Source of the DNA: Flavobacteriales bacterium
GTDB lineage: Bacteria > Bacteroidota > Bacteroidia > Flavobacteriales_G > JALEGO01
Assembly: GCA_020631045.1 (NCBI GenBank)
Contig: JAHDHZ010000014.1
Coordinates: 1 to 52,830 of the forward strand
Reading direction: 5' to 3'
Length of the DNA stretch: 52,830 bases
This document shows positions 9,382 to 45,180 of the stretch, piece after piece (the first letter of the stretch is position 1; each line of letters starts with the position of its first letter). The notes below the pieces were generated by a model. The model saw nothing but the letters and a program-made list of their open reading frames with translations, did no database searches and was not told the origin of the DNA. Made by a program: the position numbers and the translations under genes.

Positions 9382-10200
9382 ATGAACCCTCGAAGTTTTC
9401 TACCCAATGCTCTTACCTTAAGTAATTTAATGTTGGGCATTCTTGGCATTGTTTTTTCTTTTCAAGGTGCTTTGCACTTATCTGCTTATTGTATTGTATT
9501 GGCTGCCGTGTTTGATTTGTTGGATGGATTGGTTGCTCGATTGGTAAACGGTCAATCAGAAATTGGTGCTCAACTCGATTCATTGGCCGATATGGTAAGC
9601 TTTGGTGTGTTGCCCGGAATACTGATTTTTCAATTGTTAAGAATTTGTTTTTCAGAATATTATCAAGATTTATTACATACTGAAAATGGAGTGTTTTATG
9701 CTTTTGGATTGTTGATTCCTTTATTTGCTGCTACGCGCCTTGCAATTTTCAACACCTCTAATGATCAACAAACTGATTTTAAAGGAATGCCTACTCCGGC
9801 TATTGCTTTAGGAATTGCAAGCATTATCATTTTAATTGATCAAGAACTCAAAGTAAACACTTATGTGCCCATAGAGATGAAAACCCTTGATTATTTAAAA
9901 AGTATTTACAGAATCTCAAGCTTTGATTATAAGTTGTATACTCTAATTATGCAACCTTTAAACTACATGGTGTTAGCTGTTTTTTGCGCCATATCAATGG
10001 TCTTGCCCTTGAGGTTTATCTCCTTTAAATTCAAAGGATTTAATTTTAGAAAAAACCTAAGTAAGTATCTCTTGATTTTAGGGGCATTGTTAATTTTAGG
10101 TTACTGTTGGTATGTCAGACACTTTTTTATGGCTTTTGCACTTATCTTTGTATGGTACTTTGTTGCCTCAGTGTTGCACAATTTTATTTCTAAATCATGA
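9382..10200 (+). CDS. pssA: CDP-diacylglycerol-serine O-phosphatidyltransferase
   Basis: This enzyme makes phosphatidylserine from CDP-diacylglycerol and serine in the inner membrane, the first step towards phosphatidylethanolamine. The CDP-alcohol phosphotransferase motif DG-x2-AR-x8-G-x3-D-x3-D is intact in DGLVARLVNGQ..IGAQLDSLAD (residues about 47-69). About eight hydrophobic segments follow, ending FALIFVWYFVASVLHNF. An in-frame GTG lies 18 bases upstream, but the ATG at 9382 (MNPRSFLPNALTLSN) gives the normal family N-terminus. Its stop overlaps the purS start by four bases (ATGA). Confidence 0.93.
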   Translation: MNPRSFLPNALTLSNLMLGILGIVFSFQGALHLSAYCIVLAAVFDLLDGLVARLVNGQSEIGAQLDSLADMVSFGVLPGILIFQLLRICFSEYYQDLLHTENGVFYAFGLLIPLFAATRLAIFNTSNDQQTDFKGMPTPAIALGIASIIILIDQELKVNTYVPIEMKTLDYLKSIYRISSFDYKLYTLIMQPLNYMVLAVFCAISMVLPLRFISFKFKGFNFRKNLSKYLLILGALLILGYCWYVRHFFMAFALIFVWYFVASVLHNFISKS

Positions 10201-10445: not shown

Positions 10446-11971
10446 TCAGCTACATACGTACCCTTCTTTGTTTTTTATTTTTACTAAATACCTGCTTTGC
10501 TCAAAAAGTTTTTGTTCCTCAAAAAAATGGGCAAGACTTTATTTTAATCTTGCAAGCAGATGAGCCATTAGAGTATTGTATATATAAAAATGGGCTAAAT
10601 TCTAAACCCTATACATTTACGAGCCAAGCACATTCAAAGGGCGTTTATATCTCAGAGAAAATCAGTCATTCTGCAGACTCTGTTCTTCTCTCTAAAATGA
10701 GTGAAAACAATGCTTTAAGAGCATTTTATTTGAACAATCAAGAACTTGGTGCAACAAGCCTATTAAATTGTGAGTGTGAAGAAATCCCTGTAATATCAAA
10801 AACTTCATGGTGCATTGAAAATTGCACTCCTGATGATCCTTATGAGTTTCAAACACCCACACACATCATTGTGCACCATTCTGCAGATACGCAATTTGAT
10901 GCAGACACAAACTTTACATCAGCTGTGCAGTTTTACCACAGCCTTCACACCAACACAAATGGTTGGGACGATATAGGCTACAATTGGATCATTGACCCTT
11001 TAGGAAACATTTTTGAAGGCCGCCCCTCTGGTGCTAAAGGAGCACATTTTTCATGTATGAACAACAACACCTTAGGCATAGCTCTTTTAGGTAATTTTCA
11101 AATCAATACCCCAAGCCAAGCTGCCATTGAAGCTCTAGAAAAGCTCATTGCTTTTGAAGTTTGTAAAAAAGGCATCAACCTTAAAGATGTATTGTACCAT
11201 CCTGCTTCATCACTTCAATTAAATCGAATTTCAGGTCATTTAGACGGCAATAATTCAAATGAAGGTTGTGCTTCAGGAACCTCATGCCCCGGAACAAACC
11301 TATACAGTCAACTCACCAGCATTCAATCTAACATTGAGTCAGACTCATGTATCAAATCTTTCAATCAAGACCTTTATTTTTCTAACGCCAGCTTAAGTGG
11401 CAATGCTGTAAGCATTAGTAGTGGAGATCAAGTAGACTTGAATTTAGAAGTCAATTCAGTAGGCTTTAACAACCAAACCTTTAATTTCTCTTCTAAGGTT
11501 GCCATTTCTGAAGATTCTTTATTGAGCCCTGACGATACAGTACTGCACAGCTCTTTTGTGCTTTTCAATACCAATAATGGACCTTCTAGTTTTAGTGCAA
11601 GTGTTGATATTCCTGCTTTGGGTGGATGGCAAAACTACTTTTTAATTGCTATGCTTGACGCTGAAAATGAAATCGAAGAGTTTGATGAAAACAACAATAC
11701 GTTTTATATTCAGCTCGATCCTTTAAATGTTTCAAGGGCTTTAACGTCTTTTCAAGGCGTTGAAATATACCCTAATCCCATTAAAAATAATGTGTTTATA
11801 AAAAGCAGTGAAGTGCAGATCAGTGCTGAATTATTGGGCTTAGATGGCAGTTTTATACGCCCGCTTTTCATCAACAAGGCCAATGCTTTAGATGATTTAA
11901 GTGTAGGAGTTTACTTAATTAAACTTATTTCAGATCAAGGTTTTATTTTTAAAAAAATAGTGAAGATTTAG
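10442..11971 (+). CDS. Secreted N-acetylmuramoyl-L-alanine amidase (PGRP domain) with T9SS type A sorting domain
   Basis: The start is a TTG that overlaps the purS stop (TTGA). It is the only start that keeps the signal peptide (IRTLLCFLFLLNTCFAQ). The central PGRP/amidase-2 domain (about residues 138-290) contains the zinc-ligand motifs HIIVHHSAD, RISGHLDG and SGTSCPGTNL, and the conserved GWDDIGYNWIIDPLGNIFEGRP. A CARDB-like beta domain follows (LNLEVNSVGFNNQTF ... NEIEEFDENNNTF). The last 70 residues are a T9SS type A signal (EIYPNPIKNNVFIKS ... LSVGVYLIKLIS..FIFKKIVKI). It is probably exported by T9SS and cuts peptidoglycan stem peptides, of self or of prey bacteria. The target is not visible from sequence. 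Confidence 0.9.
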   Translation: MISYIRTLLCFLFLLNTCFAQKVFVPQKNGQDFILILQADEPLEYCIYKNGLNSKPYTFTSQAHSKGVYISEKISHSADSVLLSKMSENNALRAFYLNNQELGATSLLNCECEEIPVISKTSWCIENCTPDDPYEFQTPTHIIVHHSADTQFDADTNFTSAVQFYHSLHTNTNGWDDIGYNWIIDPLGNIFEGRPSGAKGAHFSCMNNNTLGIALLGNFQINTPSQAAIEALEKLIAFEVCKKGINLKDVLYHPASSLQLNRISGHLDGNNSNEGCASGTSCPGTNLYSQLTSIQSNIESDSCIKSFNQDLYFSNASLSGNAVSISSGDQVDLNLEVNSVGFNNQTFNFSSKVAISEDSLLSPDDTVLHSSFVLFNTNNGPSSFSASVDIPALGGWQNYFLIAMLDAENEIEEFDENNNTFYIQLDPLNVSRALTSFQGVEIYPNPIKNNVFIKSSEVQISAELLGLDGSFIRPLFINKANALDDLSVGVYLIKLISDQGFIFKKIVKI

Positions 11972-11982
11972 AAATAATTTCA

Positions 11983-12055
11983 TGGCTTGGAAAAAGTCTT
12001 TTTTTGTTCCACAAACCAAAGGTTTGAAGTCACCAAAAAGATTTTTTCCAAGCCA
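11983..12055. repeat. Intergenic hairpin with conserved loop core, between convergent genes
   Basis: Arms of about 21 bases (TGGCTTGGAAAAAGTCTTTTT, left 11983-12003; right 12035-12055, one mismatch) flank a 31-base loop. The loop holds its own small hairpin, CAAACC-AAA-GGTTTG, followed by AAGTC. That core matches the loops of the hairpins at 35492-35561, 37809-37900 and 45075-45134. It lies between the amidase stop (11971) and the lspA stop (12068) and could end transcription from both sides. Confidence 0.75.
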
Positions 12056-12067
12056 CAAAATTTTACT

Positions 12068-13061: not shown

Positions 13062-13135
13062 TGAATTAGAATTTTGATAACGCAAGATAAGAAACTTCTT
13101 AAAGTAGCAAAGAGAATTTGTAAAAACTTTTAATT

Positions 13136-13218
13136 AATCTTTTGGAGGGTGGATAGATTTAGAGGCTGACAAAGCTGGGCTTTGAGTGCCTCTAAATCTA
13201 TCCACCCTCCAAAAGATT
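13136..13218 (-). repeat. Perfect 31-bp inverted repeat between ileS and the DksA-like gene, carrying GGGTGGAT in both arms
   Basis: The left arm at 13136-13166 and the right arm at 13188-13218 match without a mismatch. Each arm includes TTTTGGAGGGTGGATAGA. The 21-base loop holds a second perfect hairpin, CAAAGC-TGG-GCTTTG. The element lies 14 bases after the ileS stop, so on the minus strand it may serve as the ileS terminator. The GGGTGGAT octamer, over-represented in the window, forms the stem as an inverted pair. Loop layout resembles the other core hairpins, but the core sequence is more diverged. Confidence 0.85.
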
Positions 13219-13231
13219 ACAAAACAAAGAA

Positions 13232-34973: not shown

Positions 34974-35504
34974 TTGAATAGAAAACTAAAAAACAATGAA
35001 TTAAACCGCTTATCGATTGATGAATATAAGTCGGCGGAGAAAAGCAATATGGTGCTAATTCTTGATAATGTTCGTAGTCTAAATAACATAGGATCAATCT
35101 TCAGAACTGCTGATGGCTTTCGTGTGCGCGCTATTTATTTGTGTGGAATCACTGCCCAGCCCCCCCACCGAGAAATTCAAAAAACAGCGCTTGGCGCTAC
35201 CCAAAGCGTAGATTGGAAATACTTCAACACCACCTTAGAAGCCCTTGCCCACCTCAAAGAAAAAGATTATACCATTTACAGCATCGAACAAGCCAAAAAC
35301 CGCATTTGGCTGCAAGATGTAACACCTAAAAAAGAAAAAGATTATGCCCTAGTATTCGGCCATGAAGTAAAAGGAGTGGCGCAAGAAGTGATTGATCAAA
35401 GTGATGGGGTAATTGAGATTCCGCAGAAAGGCACCAAGCACTCTTTTAATTTAAGCACTTCTGTAGCAATGGTATTGTGGGAGTTTAATAGAGAGTGGAT
35501 GTAA
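34974..35504 (+). CDS. SpoU/TrmH-family RNA 2'-O-methyltransferase
   Basis: SPOUT enzymes methylate ribose in tRNA or rRNA. The sequence contains the three SPOUT motifs: LDNVRSLNNIGSIFRTADGF, YALVFGHEVKGV and IEIPQKGTKHSFNLSTSVAMVLWEF. The likely start is the TTG at 34974 (M-NRKLKNNELNRL), which gives 176 aa and the usual N-terminus of the Bacteroidota members. An ORF extension to 34926 would run into the mutS start. Which RNA it modifies is not clear. The last four codons and the stop form the left arm of the hairpin at 35492-35561. Confidence 0.9.
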   Translation: MNRKLKNNELNRLSIDEYKSAEKSNMVLILDNVRSLNNIGSIFRTADGFRVRAIYLCGITAQPPHREIQKTALGATQSVDWKYFNTTLEALAHLKEKDYTIYSIEQAKNRIWLQDVTPKKEKDYALVFGHEVKGVAQEVIDQSDGVIEIPQKGTKHSFNLSTSVAMVLWEFNREWM

Positions 35505-35561
35505 GTATTTTTGCGCTGTCAAACACAAGGTTTGAAGGCTTAAAATACTTACATCCACTCT
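35492..35561. repeat. Hairpin with conserved loop core whose arm copies the methyltransferase gene end
   Basis: Perfect 20-base arms (AGAGTGGATGTAAGTATTTT) at 35492-35511 and 35542-35561 surround a 30-base loop. The left arm contains the last codons and the TAA of the SpoU gene, so the right arm is an inverted copy of a gene end. The loop (GCGCTG, then CAAAC-ACAAG-GTTTG, then AAGGC) is identical in all 30 bases, reverse-complemented, to the loop of the element at 37809-37900. The stop of the convergent gene lies just outside at 35565. Confidence 0.85.
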
Positions 35562-35564
35562 TTG

Positions 35565-35936
35565 TTAAATACACAATTGATCACAGATTCTTTGAATCAA
35601 CATTGAGGTAATTCTCTTTTCTAGTTCTTTTTTGTTTTCAAGTACAACACTTAACTCTTCAGTGCTAAGAAAACCAACAATAAAACCAATTAAAGTATAT
35701 TTTAAAGCAGGCTTTTTTTGAACATAATGTTGAATCGAGATCTTCTTTTGTGCTACATCTAGATTAGCAATACTTTGCATGTTAAAGTGCCTGATGAAAT
35801 ACGATAAAATGGCCTTATTTTGCAACTTTAAAATGGGCCTCAATATCTTGTTTTGAAAGTTTACTAAACTTTCTCTTTTATTATCTACGGGTAGTTTTAA
35901 ATCTTCTCTTATTTGAATTAAAACCTGATCTCTCAT
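35565..35936 (-). CDS. Conserved hypothetical protein, third gene of the UbiA operon (123 aa)
   Basis: The ATG at 35936 overlaps the UbiA stop by four bases (ATGA), so translation is coupled. The sequence is mainly helical and basic (MRDQVLIQIREDLKLPVDNK, NFQNKILRPILKLQNKAILSYF), with one hydrophobic stretch (ALKYTLIGFIVGFLS) near residue 85. The N-terminus resembles that of the first UbiA-like protein (MRDQAIRQIKYLL), perhaps by chance. I do not recognise a family. Confidence 0.7.
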   Translation of the reverse strand: MRDQVLIQIREDLKLPVDNKRESLVNFQNKILRPILKLQNKAILSYFIRHFNMQSIANLDVAQKKISIQHYVQKKPALKYTLIGFIVGFLSTEELSVVLENKKELEKRITSMLIQRICDQLCI

Positions 35937-36832
35937 TGTAAAAAGAGTTGTAAACCATATCCAACCAACAAACAAATGCATGAAAGCGCACTCAAAGCAA
36001 TTGCTTTTGACATAGCAGGCTCATAGTTTGAAAGATCTGCATATTTCTTAGTGGCTTGAATGGCTTGCAAAGCAATAGGAAAAGTCAAGAGCAATACCGC
36101 TAACCATAACGAGACATACCCCATCAATAGGGCTGTTATAAAGACAACATATGCAATGATTGACAACCACACGAGAAGTTGATGGGCTTTGGCTTGCCCT
36201 AAAATCACTGGAATGCATTTTTTATTATTTTTTAAATCATCTTGATAATCAAAAATATTGCTGATTAACCCGATATTCATCGTAAAAACACCCACTGGAA
36301 TACTGATCAATAAAGGTTCAAGGGCGTGTGCGCCCGTTAAAATATAAAAAACACCATATACAATCATAGGACCAAAGGCAAAGAAGAGCGCTGTTTCACC
36401 TAACCCCCTAAAATTTAGTTTTACGGGTGGAGCTGTGTAAAACAACACAATAAATAATCCAGCTAAGGTCATATATACAACAGGTAGGCCTATTTCAATG
36501 AATAAATAAATTCCACAAGCTAAAGCCAATAACGCGCAAATGATTGTAGCAATCAATACTTGTCTGGTTGTAATTTGCCCATGAATTAATGGGCTGTCAT
36601 GAAACTGTTGATCTTTATTGCCTAGCCTGTTTTCTTTAAAGTCAAAATAATCGTCAATAAAATCAGCGGCAGAATGGGCCATAACAATCCCAAATGTGGC
36701 GGCTAAAAAATAAATTAGATTAAAACTTCCGTAAACATAGGCAGCTAATCCACCCACCAAACAAGGCAAAAAACTGACCACTAAAAAAGGTGCTCGTGCA
36801 GCTTTTAACCAAATAATGATTTTTTCTTTCAT
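35933..36832 (-). CDS. UbiA-family prenyltransferase (MenA-like)
   Basis: UbiA enzymes attach prenyl chains to aromatic acceptors in the inner membrane. The 299-aa protein has about eight membrane helices and both Asp-rich motifs: HSAADFIDDYFDFKENRLGNKDQ (residues about 52-75) and GLISNIFDYQDDLKNNKK (about 188-205). MenA (menaquinone) is the closest guess, but the acceptor is not proven. The ATG at 36832 overlaps the stop of the upstream paralogue (ATGA). It is the middle gene of a coupled three-gene operon. Confidence 0.85.
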   Translation of the reverse strand: MKEKIIIWLKAARAPFLVVSFLPCLVGGLAAYVYGSFNLIYFLAATFGIVMAHSAADFIDDYFDFKENRLGNKDQQFHDSPLIHGQITTRQVLIATIICALLALACGIYLFIEIGLPVVYMTLAGLFIVLFYTAPPVKLNFRGLGETALFFAFGPMIVYGVFYILTGAHALEPLLISIPVGVFTMNIGLISNIFDYQDDLKNNKKCIPVILGQAKAHQLLVWLSIIAYVVFITALLMGYVSLWLAVLLLTFPIALQAIQATKKYADLSNYEPAMSKAIALSALSCICLLVGYGLQLFLQ

Positions 36833-37689
36833 GTATAAATAATAATAAGTGCTAATAAAATTCCAGTAATCAAAAGATTTAAAATAGAGCGAACAGTTGC
36901 CCACAAATAAGCCTCAATGTCAGAGGTTTGATCTTTGATGACTCTTACCACACTTAAGGCTAAAGGAAGGGTGATAAAACAAAATATTGCTCTTGTGTCT
37001 AAAACTTGAACATATACCAGAAGTGCAATTGACAGATAGGTCAATAAACTCAAAGCATATACCAAAGGCTTGTTTAGTTTAACAACTTTTTGCTGCCCAT
37101 TTATGGTTTTGATATTAAACTTAGCGCCTTTCAAATAGGCTACAACTGTTACCAAAAACCCAAGGGGGAAACTCAAATAAAAAGCGTAAAAATCAAAAAT
37201 TCCGCTCAAAGCAAAATATCCGCTTACCAAACAAAGCGGACCGAAGGTTAAGAAAACAACCAATTCTTTTAAACCCAATTTCATTAAAGGTGTAAACAAA
37301 GTCATGAAAATCAACCCAATAATTGCGGGTACCAAAACCTGAATACCCAGCTTATCAAAGAAATACAAGCCAATAAAAAAGTCAATTACAATACAAACAG
37401 CCCCTGCAACCAGTCCTGGGTTTAAACCCTTTATTTGATCAATAAATAAGGGTTTCCACCCTTTAAATATTTTTGTGTGGGCATCATCTGTAAACGTGTG
37501 GTTCTTGGTGAAATGGTAGTATAAATAATCTCCACCCATTTGGCCGATGAAAAGTGCTAAGAATAACAAAATAAAATCTAAAAGATCAAAAGTGTTGTTT
37601 CTGTAGGCTAAAGCACCTGAAAACAAAGCCGGAACAATAGATGCTGAAAAGAGCAAATACTTGATTTGTCTGATTGCTTGATCTCTCAT
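36829..37689 (-). CDS. UbiA-like membrane protein with degenerate active-site motifs
   Basis: The 286-aa protein has the length, helix pattern and start (VPALFSGALAYRNNTFDLLDFILLFLALF) of UbiA prenyltransferases and sits directly before a normal UbiA gene. The first Asp-rich motif is changed to MGGDYLYYHFTKNHTFTDDAHTK, and the second, expected near AYLKGAKFNIKTINGQQK, has no Asp pair. It may therefore be inactive, use another chemistry, or act as a partner of the downstream enzyme. Starts at an ATG at 37689. Downstream start overlaps by ATGA. Confidence 0.72.
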   Translation of the reverse strand: MRDQAIRQIKYLLFSASIVPALFSGALAYRNNTFDLLDFILLFLALFIGQMGGDYLYYHFTKNHTFTDDAHTKIFKGWKPLFIDQIKGLNPGLVAGAVCIVIDFFIGLYFFDKLGIQVLVPAIIGLIFMTLFTPLMKLGLKELVVFLTFGPLCLVSGYFALSGIFDFYAFYLSFPLGFLVTVVAYLKGAKFNIKTINGQQKVVKLNKPLVYALSLLTYLSIALLVYVQVLDTRAIFCFITLPLALSVVRVIKDQTSDIEAYLWATVRSILNLLITGILLALIIIYT

Positions 37690-37808
37690 AATTATAAACT
37701 TACATAATTTTCAATAATTATTGAAAATTAATCAGGTAAGAATTTAACAATTAACGCTGTATAGAAAGTGTATAAATTATGCCTGCTTTTACTGTAAGCG
37801 GTGGTTGG

Positions 37809-37900
37809 AGATTAACGAAAAGGTGATGGAGGTATTTTAAGCCTTCAAACCTTGTGTTTGACAGCGCAAAAATACCTCCATCACCTTTTCGTTAATCTCG
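37809..37900 (-). repeat. Long hairpin with conserved loop core whose arm copies the phosphoribosyltransferase gene end
   Basis: Perfect 31-base arms (GAGATTAACGAAAAGGTGAT then GGAGGTATTTT) enclose a 30-base loop that is the exact reverse complement of the loop at 35512-35541. The right arm holds the last codons and the TGA of the phosphoribosyltransferase gene, so the left arm is an inverted copy of a gene end. The arm parts next to the loop (GTATTTT/AAAATAC) are also shared with the other element. Coordinates may be off by a base. The gap 37690-37808 shows nothing else. Confidence 0.85.
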
Positions 37901-38378
37901 CCGTTACTTGGTTTTTTGCTTTAAAACTAACCTGAATATGATCTTCAATTGTGGTTGAAAGCGTTAGCCCTACAATATCGGCACGAATCGGAAAATCTCT
38001 GTGTTTGCGATCAACTAACACCACAGAAGAGACGCGTTTTACCGCGTAATTCAGTACTTCTTTAAATACGTACGCCAAGGTTTTACCTGTATTTAAAACA
38101 TCATCAACAATATAGATGGTTTTGTTTTTTAAACTAGTATCTGAGAGCTTTACGGTTGGAATTTTTTTTGAAGTATCAATCACAGCTTCAATCAACACTA
38201 CCTTAAAAGAGGCTATTTTTAACAGTTGTTTTTGCAAGATTTGAGCCAATAAAAAACCCTTGCTGGAGATGCCAACAAGGGTAATTTCTTTTTCATTCAG
38301 ACATTCTTCTATAATCTGAAAACCAATACGTGTAATCTTCTTTTGTGCTTGCTCGTTATTTAAAATTTCACGAGCCAT
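37881..38378 (-). CDS. PyrR-like phosphoribosyltransferase
   Basis: The PRPP-binding motif is YIVDDVLNTGKTLAYV (residues about 90-105). The end LVDRKHRDFPIRADIVGLTLST is PyrR-like. PyrR is a uracil phosphoribosyltransferase, in some bacteria also an RNA-binding attenuator of pyrimidine genes. Here no pyr gene is near, so only the enzyme role is suggested. The ATG at 38378 gives 165 aa. It begins three bases after the pyrophosphatase stop, so the PPi made in phosphoribosyl transfer and its hydrolysis are encoded in one operon. The stop codon lies in the hairpin arm. Confidence 0.85.
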   Translation of the reverse strand: MAREILNNEQAQKKITRIGFQIIEECLNEKEITLVGISSKGFLLAQILQKQLLKIASFKVVLIEAVIDTSKKIPTVKLSDTSLKNKTIYIVDDVLNTGKTLAYVFKEVLNYAVKRVSSVVLVDRKHRDFPIRADIVGLTLSTTIEDHIQVSFKAKNQVTARLTKR

Positions 38379-38381
38379 CAA

Positions 38382-41117
38382 TTATGCTCCAACAATATTG
38401 AACTGAAGACTCACTTTATCTTTAATGATTTTATCTTTTAAAGAAGGAAAAATCTTTTTTGAATTGTAATTGATGCCGAAATCGGTACGATCAAATTCTA
38501 AATCTCCATTGATATTGTATGTGCCATCTGTGTTCATAGAAACAGAAGCCGGAAACTCCACCACTTTAGTTTGGTTTTTGATGGTCAATTCTGCTCTTAA
38601 AATCTGATTCTTGTCAGTTGGCAGATTCTCTAATACTTTTAAAGAAGCGGCAGGATACTTTTCTACGTCAAAAAAGTCAGCATTCTTTAAATGACCAATC
38701 AATTTTGCATTGTACTCAGCATCTTCAACATCAGAACAAGTCATATTATTTAAATCAACAATGATATTGCCTGAAGTTATTTTACCATCTTGAACGTTAA
38801 AACTACCAGACTGAACACCAACTGTACCTTCATGCTTATCTCCCAATAATTTTTTACCAACCCAACCTATTGAAGAAGCCTCAGTGTTTATCTGAATGGC
38901 ACCATCACTTAAAGCAGTAGTGCTGGCAGCAGCACTCATTTCATTGTTTTGATCATCGCTCATTTCAACCACTTCAGTATTGTGGGCATCAGCACTTGCA
39001 TGGCCATGCGCACCAACACCTGGCAAGTGTGGAGCAATTACCAAAGAAACAATAGACATTAACTTAATTAAGATGTTCATTGAAGGGCCAGAGGTATCTT
39101 TAAACGGATCTCCTACAGTATCACCTGTTACAGATGCCTTATGTGCATCAGAGCCTTTATATTCCATCTTTCCGTCAATTTCTACGCCTTTCTCAAAAGA
39201 TTTCTTGGCATTATCCCAAGCACCACCAGCATTACTTTGAAAGATACCCATGAGCACACCACTTACGGTAACTCCGGCTAATAATCCACCCAATACTTCT
39301 GGGCCAAAAGCAAAACCAACAATAATTGGTGTAATTAAAGCAATCAAACCGGGTGCCATCATTTCTTTAATAGATGCTTGTGTTGAAATGGCGACACATT
39401 TATCATACTCAGGCTTGGCTTTGTATTCCATAATGCCAGGAATTTCTTTAAACTGACGTCTTACCTCGTGTACCATTGCCATAGCCGCTCGACCTACAGC
39501 TGCAATTGCAAGGGCAGAGAAAATAAATGGAATCATCGCTCCAACAAATAAACCAGCCAATACATCTGCTTTGTAAATATCAATTGCATCAATACCAGAA
39601 ATTCCAACAAAAGCAGCAAATAACGCTAGTGCAGTTAAAGCAGCTGAAGCAATTGCAAAACCTTTACCAGTAGCAGCAGTTGTGTTACCAACAGCATCTA
39701 AGGTATCGGTACGCTCACGAACCTCATCAGGTAATCCACTCATCTCAGCGATTCCACCCGCATTATCAGCAATAGGGCCAAAAGCATCAATTGCCAATTG
39801 CATAGCGGTCGTAGCCATCATACCAGCAGCTGCAATGGCAACTCCGTATAAACCAGCAAACATGTGTGATAAATAAATACCAGCCGCTAAGATTAAAATT
39901 GGAATAACCGTACTTTCCATACCCACAGCCAGTCCGCCAATGATATTTGTTGCATGTCCAGTTGAAGATTGCTGTACAATAGAGTTTACTGGTTTCTTAC
40001 CCATTGCTGTGTAGTATTCTGTTACAATACTCATTAAAGCGCCAACCACTAATCCTACTACAATAGCAAAGAATACATCCATTGAAGAAAAATCGATTCC
40101 TCTAATGTTCATGCTGTCAGCTAGCATGTAATCACATAAGAAATAAGAAGCAATTCCTGTCAGTACAATCGAAGACCAGTTTCCTAAGTTTAGAGCCATT
40201 TGCACATCGCCTTGATCATCTTTTACTTTCACAAACATGAAACCTACTACAGAAAATAATAATCCAAGTCCTGCAATTACCATTGGTAACAAGATGGGGG
40301 CAATGCCTCCAAAAGCATCTAAAGAAACAATCTCTCTACCTAAGATCATGGTAGCTAAAATAGTCGCTACGTAAGAGCCAAATAAATCAGCGCCCATACC
40401 TGCAACATCACCAACATTGTCGCCCACATTATCGGCAATAGTCGCTGGGTTACGCACATCATCTTCAGGAATTCCCGCTTCAACCTTTCCTACTAAATCA
40501 GCCCCAACATCAGCCGCTTTGGTGTAGATTCCTCCACCCACACGGGCAAAAAGTGCAATTGATTCAGCACCTAAAGAAAATCCTGCCAATACCTCTAGTG
40601 CTTTCTCCATTGCAAGTCCATTAACATCTCCACCTGTATTTAAGACATACATTTGATAGAACACAATAAACAAAGCGCCTAATCCAAGTACTGCAAGACC
40701 CGCAACACCTAAACCCATGACAGAGCCTCCAGTAAATGAAACTTTTAAAGCCTTTTTTAAAGAAGTGCGCGCTGCTTGTGTGGTACGCACATTTGAAAGA
40801 GTTGCTACATTCATGCCGATGTATCCGGCAAATGCTGAAAAGACTGCTCCGATTACAAATGAAATACCAATGATGGGGCTTGAAGTTTCAACAAGAGTAC
40901 CTGACCAAGTCAATAGAATGGTGGCAATCACTACAAAGTAGAACATCACTTTCCATTCTGCTTTCAAGAAAGCCATCGCGCCATCTGCAATGTGCTTTGC
41001 CAATTCTTTCATATTCTCATCGCCCTGCTCTTGTTTTTTTACCCAAGCTTGTTGAACATACATGATGATTAGTCCTAGTATACCTAATAGTGGTGCTGCG
41101 TATATTATTTTATGCAT
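38382..41117 (-). CDS. hppA: Membrane ion-pumping pyrophosphatase fused to a C-terminal YceI domain
   Basis: Membrane pyrophosphatases split PPi and pump H+ or Na+. Residues about 1-725 are a full enzyme with about 16 helices: [51 protein letters not shown] and [14 protein letters not shown]. The Ala in GNTTAATGK, where K+-independent enzymes have Lys, points to the K+-dependent, often Na+-pumping class. After a His/Asp-rich linker ([18 protein letters not shown]), about 180 residues form a YceI-type lipocalin domain ([24 protein letters not shown] ... [14 protein letters not shown]). YceI domains bind isoprenoids such as polyprenyl chains. The fusion is in frame with no sign of a missed stop. 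Confidence 0.92.
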
Positions 41118-44964: not shown

Positions 44965-45180
44965 CGACTATTCGCAGTAGTTGTAGGTTAGAAAAGTGTT
45001 TTTCTAGGTAATACGGGGTCTTTTTGCTGTTCACAAAAAGCCTCCGTTTACCAACAAAAACTATTGTGGCTTACAAAATCTTGGCTTTGGGCGCTGCTAA
45101 ACTGAAGTTTAGAGGCGCGCAAAGCCAAGATTTTTCAGCACACAAATTACTTTTCAAATTCCTACAAGCTACTCGCTTCT
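44965..45180. repeat. Large foldback element with two internal hairpins, upstream of mreB
   Basis: The 298-base gap between mreB and the MbnP-type gene is filled by nested inverted repeats. The outer arms are imperfect: GTAG-TTGTAGG-GAAAAGT (44977-44997) against ACTTTTC-CCTACAA-CTAC (45149-45172). Inside lie hairpin A (45007-45052, GGTAATACGG...CCGTTTACC with CTTTTTG/CAAAAAG) and hairpin B (45075-45134). Together they could fold as a three-way junction. It may be a structured RNA, a leader of mreB, or stacked terminators. No ORF is present. Confidence 0.65.
45075..45134. repeat. Core-type hairpin inside the foldback element
   Basis: Perfect 15-base arms (AAAATCTTGGCTTTG) flank a 30-base loop with GCGCTG, the small hairpin CTAAAC-TGAA-GTTTAG and AGGC. 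The loop has the same length and plan as the identical 30-base loops at 35.5 and 37.8 kb, differing at several bases. Confidence 0.75.

Follow-up and report, generated by a model that had tools for sequence, protein, structure and literature searches.

A dispersed hairpin core whose arms appear to be inverted copies of adjoining DNA in a Flavobacteriales genome

The 2.34-Mb genome of this member of the Bacteroidota carries a family of long hairpins that are centered on one conserved core, and as a whole they are probably best explained by a mobile core together with fold-back copying of the flank upstream of it. In this reading, the part that comparison of related loci supports well is that one flank was copied in inverted form beyond the core. 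Using a covariance model built on an alignment of 22 example elements, we found 57 distinct elements (89 matches counting both strands, which were then merged), 5 of which lie inside the window, that is, the whole stretch of 52,830 nucleotides from which the analysis started.

Two elements of the window, A (positions 35484-35569; 28-bp arms, 93% complementary, 30 nt between them) and B (37808-37899; 31-bp arms, 100% complementary, also with 30 nt between), lie on opposite strands, and their cores (GCGCTGTCAAACACAAGGTTTGAAGGCTTA) are identical at 30 of 30 positions. The arm of A includes the final 18 coding bases and the stop codon of a SpoU/TrmH-family gene, and that of B includes the final 16 coding bases and the stop codon of a phosphoribosyltransferase gene. 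The first-pass annotation had described two hairpins with a common 30-base core and the coding ends of neighboring genes in their arms, and the coordinates of arms, cores, and ORFs summarized in Table 1 bear this out. Its statement that the arms share only seven bases was slightly too strong: the seven bases are indeed common to both, and beyond them 12 of 21 positions match (the mean over all pairs of elements was 6.5), a level reached by 13 of the 630 element pairs. Four long-hairpin centers were detected in the window versus none in each of six first-order Markov controls, and RNA folding of the two hairpins gave z-scores of −11.8 and −15.1; thus, A and B did not arise by chance. Positions 38382-41117 of the window encode a membrane pyrophosphatase and a C-terminal YceI-like domain fused in one ORF, and the same arrangement is present in the same-genus genome G001.

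TABLE 1 Coordinates of the elements, their parts, and adjoining features (window positions unless stated otherwise)
Feature	Position	Strand	Description
SpoU/TrmH-family RNA methyltransferase gene	34986..35504	+	Pfam SpoU_methylase, E=3e-33; last codons and stop in 5′ arm of A
Element A, 5′ arm	35484..35511	+	Native flank: methyltransferase gene end and T-run
Element A, core	35512..35541	+	Inner hairpin TCAAAC-ACAAG-GTTTGA; TG / AG unpaired
Element A, 3′ arm	35542..35569	+	Putative inverted copy; 93% complementary to 35484-35511
Convergent ORF, 138 aa	35565..35981	-	Stop overlapped 5 nt by far arm of A; no Pfam or NCBIfam match
Element B, 3′ arm	37808..37838	-	Putative inverted copy; 100% complementary to 37869-37899
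Element B, core	37839..37868	-	30/30 identical to core of A
Element B, 5′ arm	37869..37899	-	Native flank: phosphoribosyltransferase last codons and stop, and T-run
Phosphoribosyltransferase (PyrR-like) gene	37881..38381	-	NCBIfam PyrR models, E~6e-26, below cut-off
Element C	11976..12062	+	Same family, divergent core; between convergent genes ending at 11971 and 12068
Element D	13135..13219	+	Perfect 32-bp outer arms; core GAGGC-TGA-CAAAG-CTGGG-CTTTG-AGT-GCCTC
Element E	45064..45145	+	Variant core CTAAAC-TGAA-GTTTAG; adjoins dispersed repeat
C45 repeat copies	Stretch L037: 300-660, 1490-1660, 4636-4970, 14119-14379, 15002-15262, 18635-18895		Contig C45

The 22-sequence alignment yielded a core consensus of about 30 nt, TTTTNNGTGC-TGW-CAAAS-N4/5-STTTG-AAK-GCACNNAAAA, with a TTT(T) stretch 5′ of nearly every core. 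This T-run is part of the target rather than of the core, since it is already present at the empty sites of the repeat on contig C45 described below. The covariance model found no element in G001 and, in 58 other relatives, nothing beyond one marginal match. A core-pattern search of 84,980 species genomes returned just 14 scattered singletons, and IMG/VR returned one; these were taken as chance matches, as no core-centered hairpin was present at the fetched loci. No long hairpin of any kind was found in 170 kb of the relatives G001 to G003, and hairpins of other kinds, coreless long ones included, are few within this genome. One such case is a perfect inverted repeat of 40 bp on contig C37 (stretch L263, 4130-4229), which has a spacer of 20 nt and lacks the core. 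Cores without arms were not convincingly detected either, among 35 loose motif matches in the approximately 540 kb scanned closely, and an Rfam search of window positions 10000 to 46000 returned two tRNAs only and no match for the elements.

Within the genome, the elements are clustered: in the stretches taken for close work (about 1.0 Mb in all), 40 further stretches totaling 479 kb contained none, compared with about 12 expected, and the G+C content of element-bearing contigs is slightly higher than that of element-free contigs (0.374 versus 0.365). Three or four hairpins spaced at approximately 100 nt and in mixed orientations occur together at L035 11909-12265 and L114 4584-4900. Six contig ends fall in a hairpin or no more than about 30 nt from one (the end of C54 in L120, the start and end of C26 in L113, and the ends of C84 in L125, C40 in L117, and C31 in L115), and C54 and C26 terminate in one and the same element. 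The hairpins therefore seem to break the assembly, and 57 may be an undercount.

The elements adjoin the 3′ ends of genes. Convergent gene pairs flank 18 of them, tandem pairs flank 30, and 4 have an apparently divergent context; the remaining 5, near contig ends, were left unassigned. Their arms mostly begin 1 to 15 nt outside a stop codon, and their positions cluster about 40 to 60 nt past stop codons. Orientation relative to transcription is mixed, and for several elements between tandem genes the closest stop codon lies 3′ of the core. The first-pass annotation had held that a gene end is copied back beyond the core; A and B have arms arranged in this way, but an overlap with coding sequence of at least 8 nt occurs in no more than four elements, and the copying of gene ends is thus incidental, the tail of a distribution. 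Where a gene end facing the element lay within 40 nt, overlap between arm and coding sequence was seen in 6 of 19 cases 5′ of the core and in 1 of 20 cases 3′ of it (Fisher P = 0.044; Mann-Whitney P = 0.043), a small comparison, hand-compiled from simple ORF calls with A and B included, that is just nominally significant. In the C45 family, as in A and B, it is likewise the flank 5′ of the core that is native. These data give moderate support to the view that the native flank is the 5′ one, the polarity that fold-back priming predicts.

To see how arms relate to cores, we compared pairs among 36 long-armed elements. Arm positions 21 to 40 nt from the center were 32% identical where the cores of a pair shared at least 90% identity and 30% identical where they shared less than 70%. 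Identical cores thus bear unrelated yet near-perfectly paired arms, which indicates that the arms were not inherited with the core. Most arms are unique to their element, and searches with arms plus flanks matched mainly duplicated loci (C19:22067, C45:6481, C84:8059, and C54/C26) and a short common inner-arm motif. Since the outer flanks of the copies with common arms match too, these copies are segmental duplications. The sequence GAAAAAGTCTTTT is common to some elements (the C45 repeats, C47, and window position 11976) amid otherwise unrelated flanks, and part of an arm may therefore sometimes travel with the core. The element at which C54 and C26 end (L120/L113) and the one at L034 12076-12136 lie in homologous repeat copies, with cores in opposite orientation and arms that differ and are perfect in C54/C26; either an inversion of the spacer or a second insertion would account for this difference.

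A dispersed repeat of approximately 120 bp (GGCTCCCGATCC...GGATC.GAGTTTCTCAAA) is present in about nine copies, mostly on contig C45, between unrelated genes, and it occurs both with and without an element. Read in the orientation of the core, an empty copy runs ...ACTAAGGCATTCGAAAAAGTCTTTTGC|CCCACAATCACC, with the junction GGCATTCGAAAAAGTCTTTTGC|CCCAC, and a filled copy runs ...TAAGGCATCCGAAAAAGTCTTTTGC - AGTACTGACAAACCAAAGGTTTGAATGCACA - GCAAAAGATTTTTTCTTCTGCC|CTACAACCACC, with a junction of the form GGCATCCGAAAAAGTCTTTTGC-[core]-GCAAAAGATTTTTTCTTCTGCC|CTAC. Both kinds of copy contain the flank 5′ of the core, and what the filled copies have in addition is the core of approximately 31 nt plus an inverted copy of approximately 22 nt of that 5′ flank (18 of 22 positions matching). 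In this one family, then, the duplication is inverted and not direct, and the filled copies return to the repeat at a TGCC-type microhomology of 3 to 4 nt. The filled copies carry identical differences between their two arms, which points to common descent; they probably derive from one insertion followed by duplication, and so stand for one event, not several. The shared flanks of C56/C9 and of C47/C40 were also considered as empty sites, and their comparison was uninformative.

Orthologous intergenic DNA of G001 to G003 is too diverged to align (mostly 68 to 81% identity in same-genus matches), and comparison was thus limited to coding ends and repeat copies. For the methyltransferase, the tail past the anchor is 7 residues here and 5 to 13 (median, 8) in 29 orthologues, and inverted repeats close to the stop codon reached a score of at most 12 in the 29 orthologues versus 22 here. 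With a tail of normal length and no hairpin in the orthologues, the coding end is ancestral in position and the hairpin is new. At the phosphoribosyltransferase stop, the inverted-repeat score was at most 11 in 29 orthologues versus 31 here, and the tail (37881-37899) is 3 to 4 residues longer than in the measurable orthologues, which means that this gene end is not simply unchanged. This comparison had been proposed in the first-pass annotation, which expected relatives to have the gene end and lack the arm copy. The earlier proposal of a fixed core beside unrelated flanks, one of which is copied back inverted, gains support from the empty and filled repeats, the hairpin-free orthologues, and the polarity of the coding overlap.

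The same observations bear on other readings of the elements. They could be old 3′-UTR stem-loops under selection, bound by a protein via the core, with arms whose divergence by compensatory changes preserved pairing. A constant loop on a variable paired stem is the classic pattern of such RNAs, and the clustering at about 40 to 60 nt past stop codons and the very stable folding of the window elements agree with it. However, cores that are 96 to 100% identical accompany arms at random similarity, which leaves no time for compensatory divergence; moreover, the same-genus genome has no element, and the element-free repeat copies have one arm only, so that we regard this reading as unlikely. It is also quite improbable that the complete hairpin, arms included, moves in the manner of a MITE or REP and replaces gene ends on landing. 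Dispersed copies with common flanks and arms (C19:22067, C45:6481, and C84:8059), the weak similarity of the A and B arms, and the long phosphoribosyltransferase tail could be read in this way, but the arm-sharing copies match in their outer flanks as well, as segmental duplications do, most arms are unique, the TrmH stop codon is at its ancestral place, and the empty repeats already have the 5′ arm.

Insertion of the core into the loop of pre-existing terminator hairpins, both arms being old terminator stems, would suit elements that lie just past stop codons and, between convergent genes, often occupy the whole gap. Yet the orthologous stop codons lack long hairpins (scores of at most 12 versus 22 and 31), as do 170 kb of relatives, coreless long hairpins are rare in this genome, and the empty repeats have one arm, all of which makes this origin highly improbable. 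Fold-back chimeras formed during assembly or amplification come to mind because the assembly is fragmented and several contigs end inside hairpins, but random chimeras would neither center 57 palindromes on a conserved core nor avoid coding sequence, and one element was recovered with the same sequence from two contig ends (C54/C26); an artefact is thus hardly credible.

For the reading that we prefer, a mobile core with fold-back copying of its upstream flank, the steps may be envisaged as follows. A self-complementary core of approximately 30 nt would join 3′ of a T-run, usually just past a stop codon, and fold on itself, so that its 3′ half could prime synthesis back along the newly made strand. 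The strand would be extended 5′ to 3′ through the core, its GCAC end would pair with GTGC, and about 15 to 30 nt of the 5′ flank would then be copied in inverted form before synthesis resumed on the normal template, probably via a few bases of microhomology. The product would run from flank through core to inverted flank and form a near-perfect hairpin that differs from locus to locus. The priming step is inferred, and the donor of the core is likewise conjectural: a nascent strand ending in a T-run might switch to an existing element, copy its core, and fold back. The ORFs checked beside elements revealed no candidate for a mover, being housekeeping or gliding/secretion genes or ORFs without a match. 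The Y1 transposase family PF01797 gave no match in this genome (assembly 98.6% complete) and one in G002, and the reverse transcriptase family PF00078, which a retroelement would call for, gave none in this genome and one in G001. Tentatively, and at somewhat less than even odds, the elements may be a minimal mobile element, in which a hairpin core of approximately 30 nt joins the 3′ end of a target after a T-run, self-primes copying of the target, and leaves an inverted target duplication at each insertion. Such an element would require no Y1 transposase or reverse transcriptase and might do without any enzyme of its own.

Several known systems share features with this family. Short-range template-switch mutations create RNA hairpins with perfect stems (Monttinen & Loytynoja 2022, PMC8794818), and template switching perfects quasipalindromes in Escherichia coli and yeast (PMC7202029, PMC8604942). 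The elements resemble such mutations in the reverse-complement copy of adjacent sequence, in the long perfect stems, and in the perfected palindrome, and the inverted copy is present in the derived state and absent from the ancestral one, both in the C45 repeats and in the orthologues without a hairpin. In contrast to template-switch mutations, which are described as sporadic and sequence independent, they have a conserved core of approximately 30 nt at the center of 57 elements and have spread to dozens of loci. With REP/REPIN sequences and their RAYT (TnpA_REP) transposases, they have in common short imperfect hairpins with a mismatched stem, an intergenic and dispersed location, and some clusters in opposite orientation (PMC6006769, PMC3116915). 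In REPs, the whole palindrome is conserved, with a GTAG-type foot and a Y1 transposase (PMC6006769, PMC3116915), whereas here the core alone is conserved, a T-run precedes it, the arms are locus specific, there is no GTAG/GGAG foot, and a Y1 transposase was not detected. Like bacterial MITEs, Rickettsia palindromic elements, RUP, and Correia elements, they are small noncoding palindromic mobile sequences (PMC2229807). MITEs have conserved terminal repeats of their own, while the outer inverted repeat here appears to be made from the target, and terminal inverted repeats common to the copies were not found, save at duplicated loci and for one short inner-arm motif. Long perfect inverted repeats that extend over coding sequence are found in mitochondrial genes of Nematomorpha, and template switching has been proposed as one of their possible origins (PMC6649704); these repeats are mitochondrial and lie within genes, and the sections of that paper drawn on here describe no conserved mobile core, unlike what we find. 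Literature searches that paired Flavobacteriia with either template switching or REP gave no result. A mobile core with arms from inverted target duplication matches none of template-switch mutations, REP/REPIN sequences, MITEs, and Rickettsia palindromic elements, and to our knowledge, and in a limited search of the open literature, no repeat family combines these two features.

The RNA hairpins predicted for the five window elements are very stable (−35 to −64 kcal/mol), and in the elements inspected closely by eye no obvious U-tract follows the hairpin. A putative terminator function, which the first-pass annotation suggested for any gene, is plausible, and the elements may also act as hairpins at RNA 3′ ends or protect RNA. 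If our reading of the elements is true, a very small sequence would be spreading through this genome and turning the adjacent DNA into a long hairpin each time it lands, which would link dispersed palindromic repeats with template-switch mutagenesis, two subjects so far treated separately, and would provide a natural system for fold-back copying at dozens of separate sites. A further consequence would be that a gene can gain a strong 3′-end hairpin in one step instead of by the usual slow compensatory evolution.
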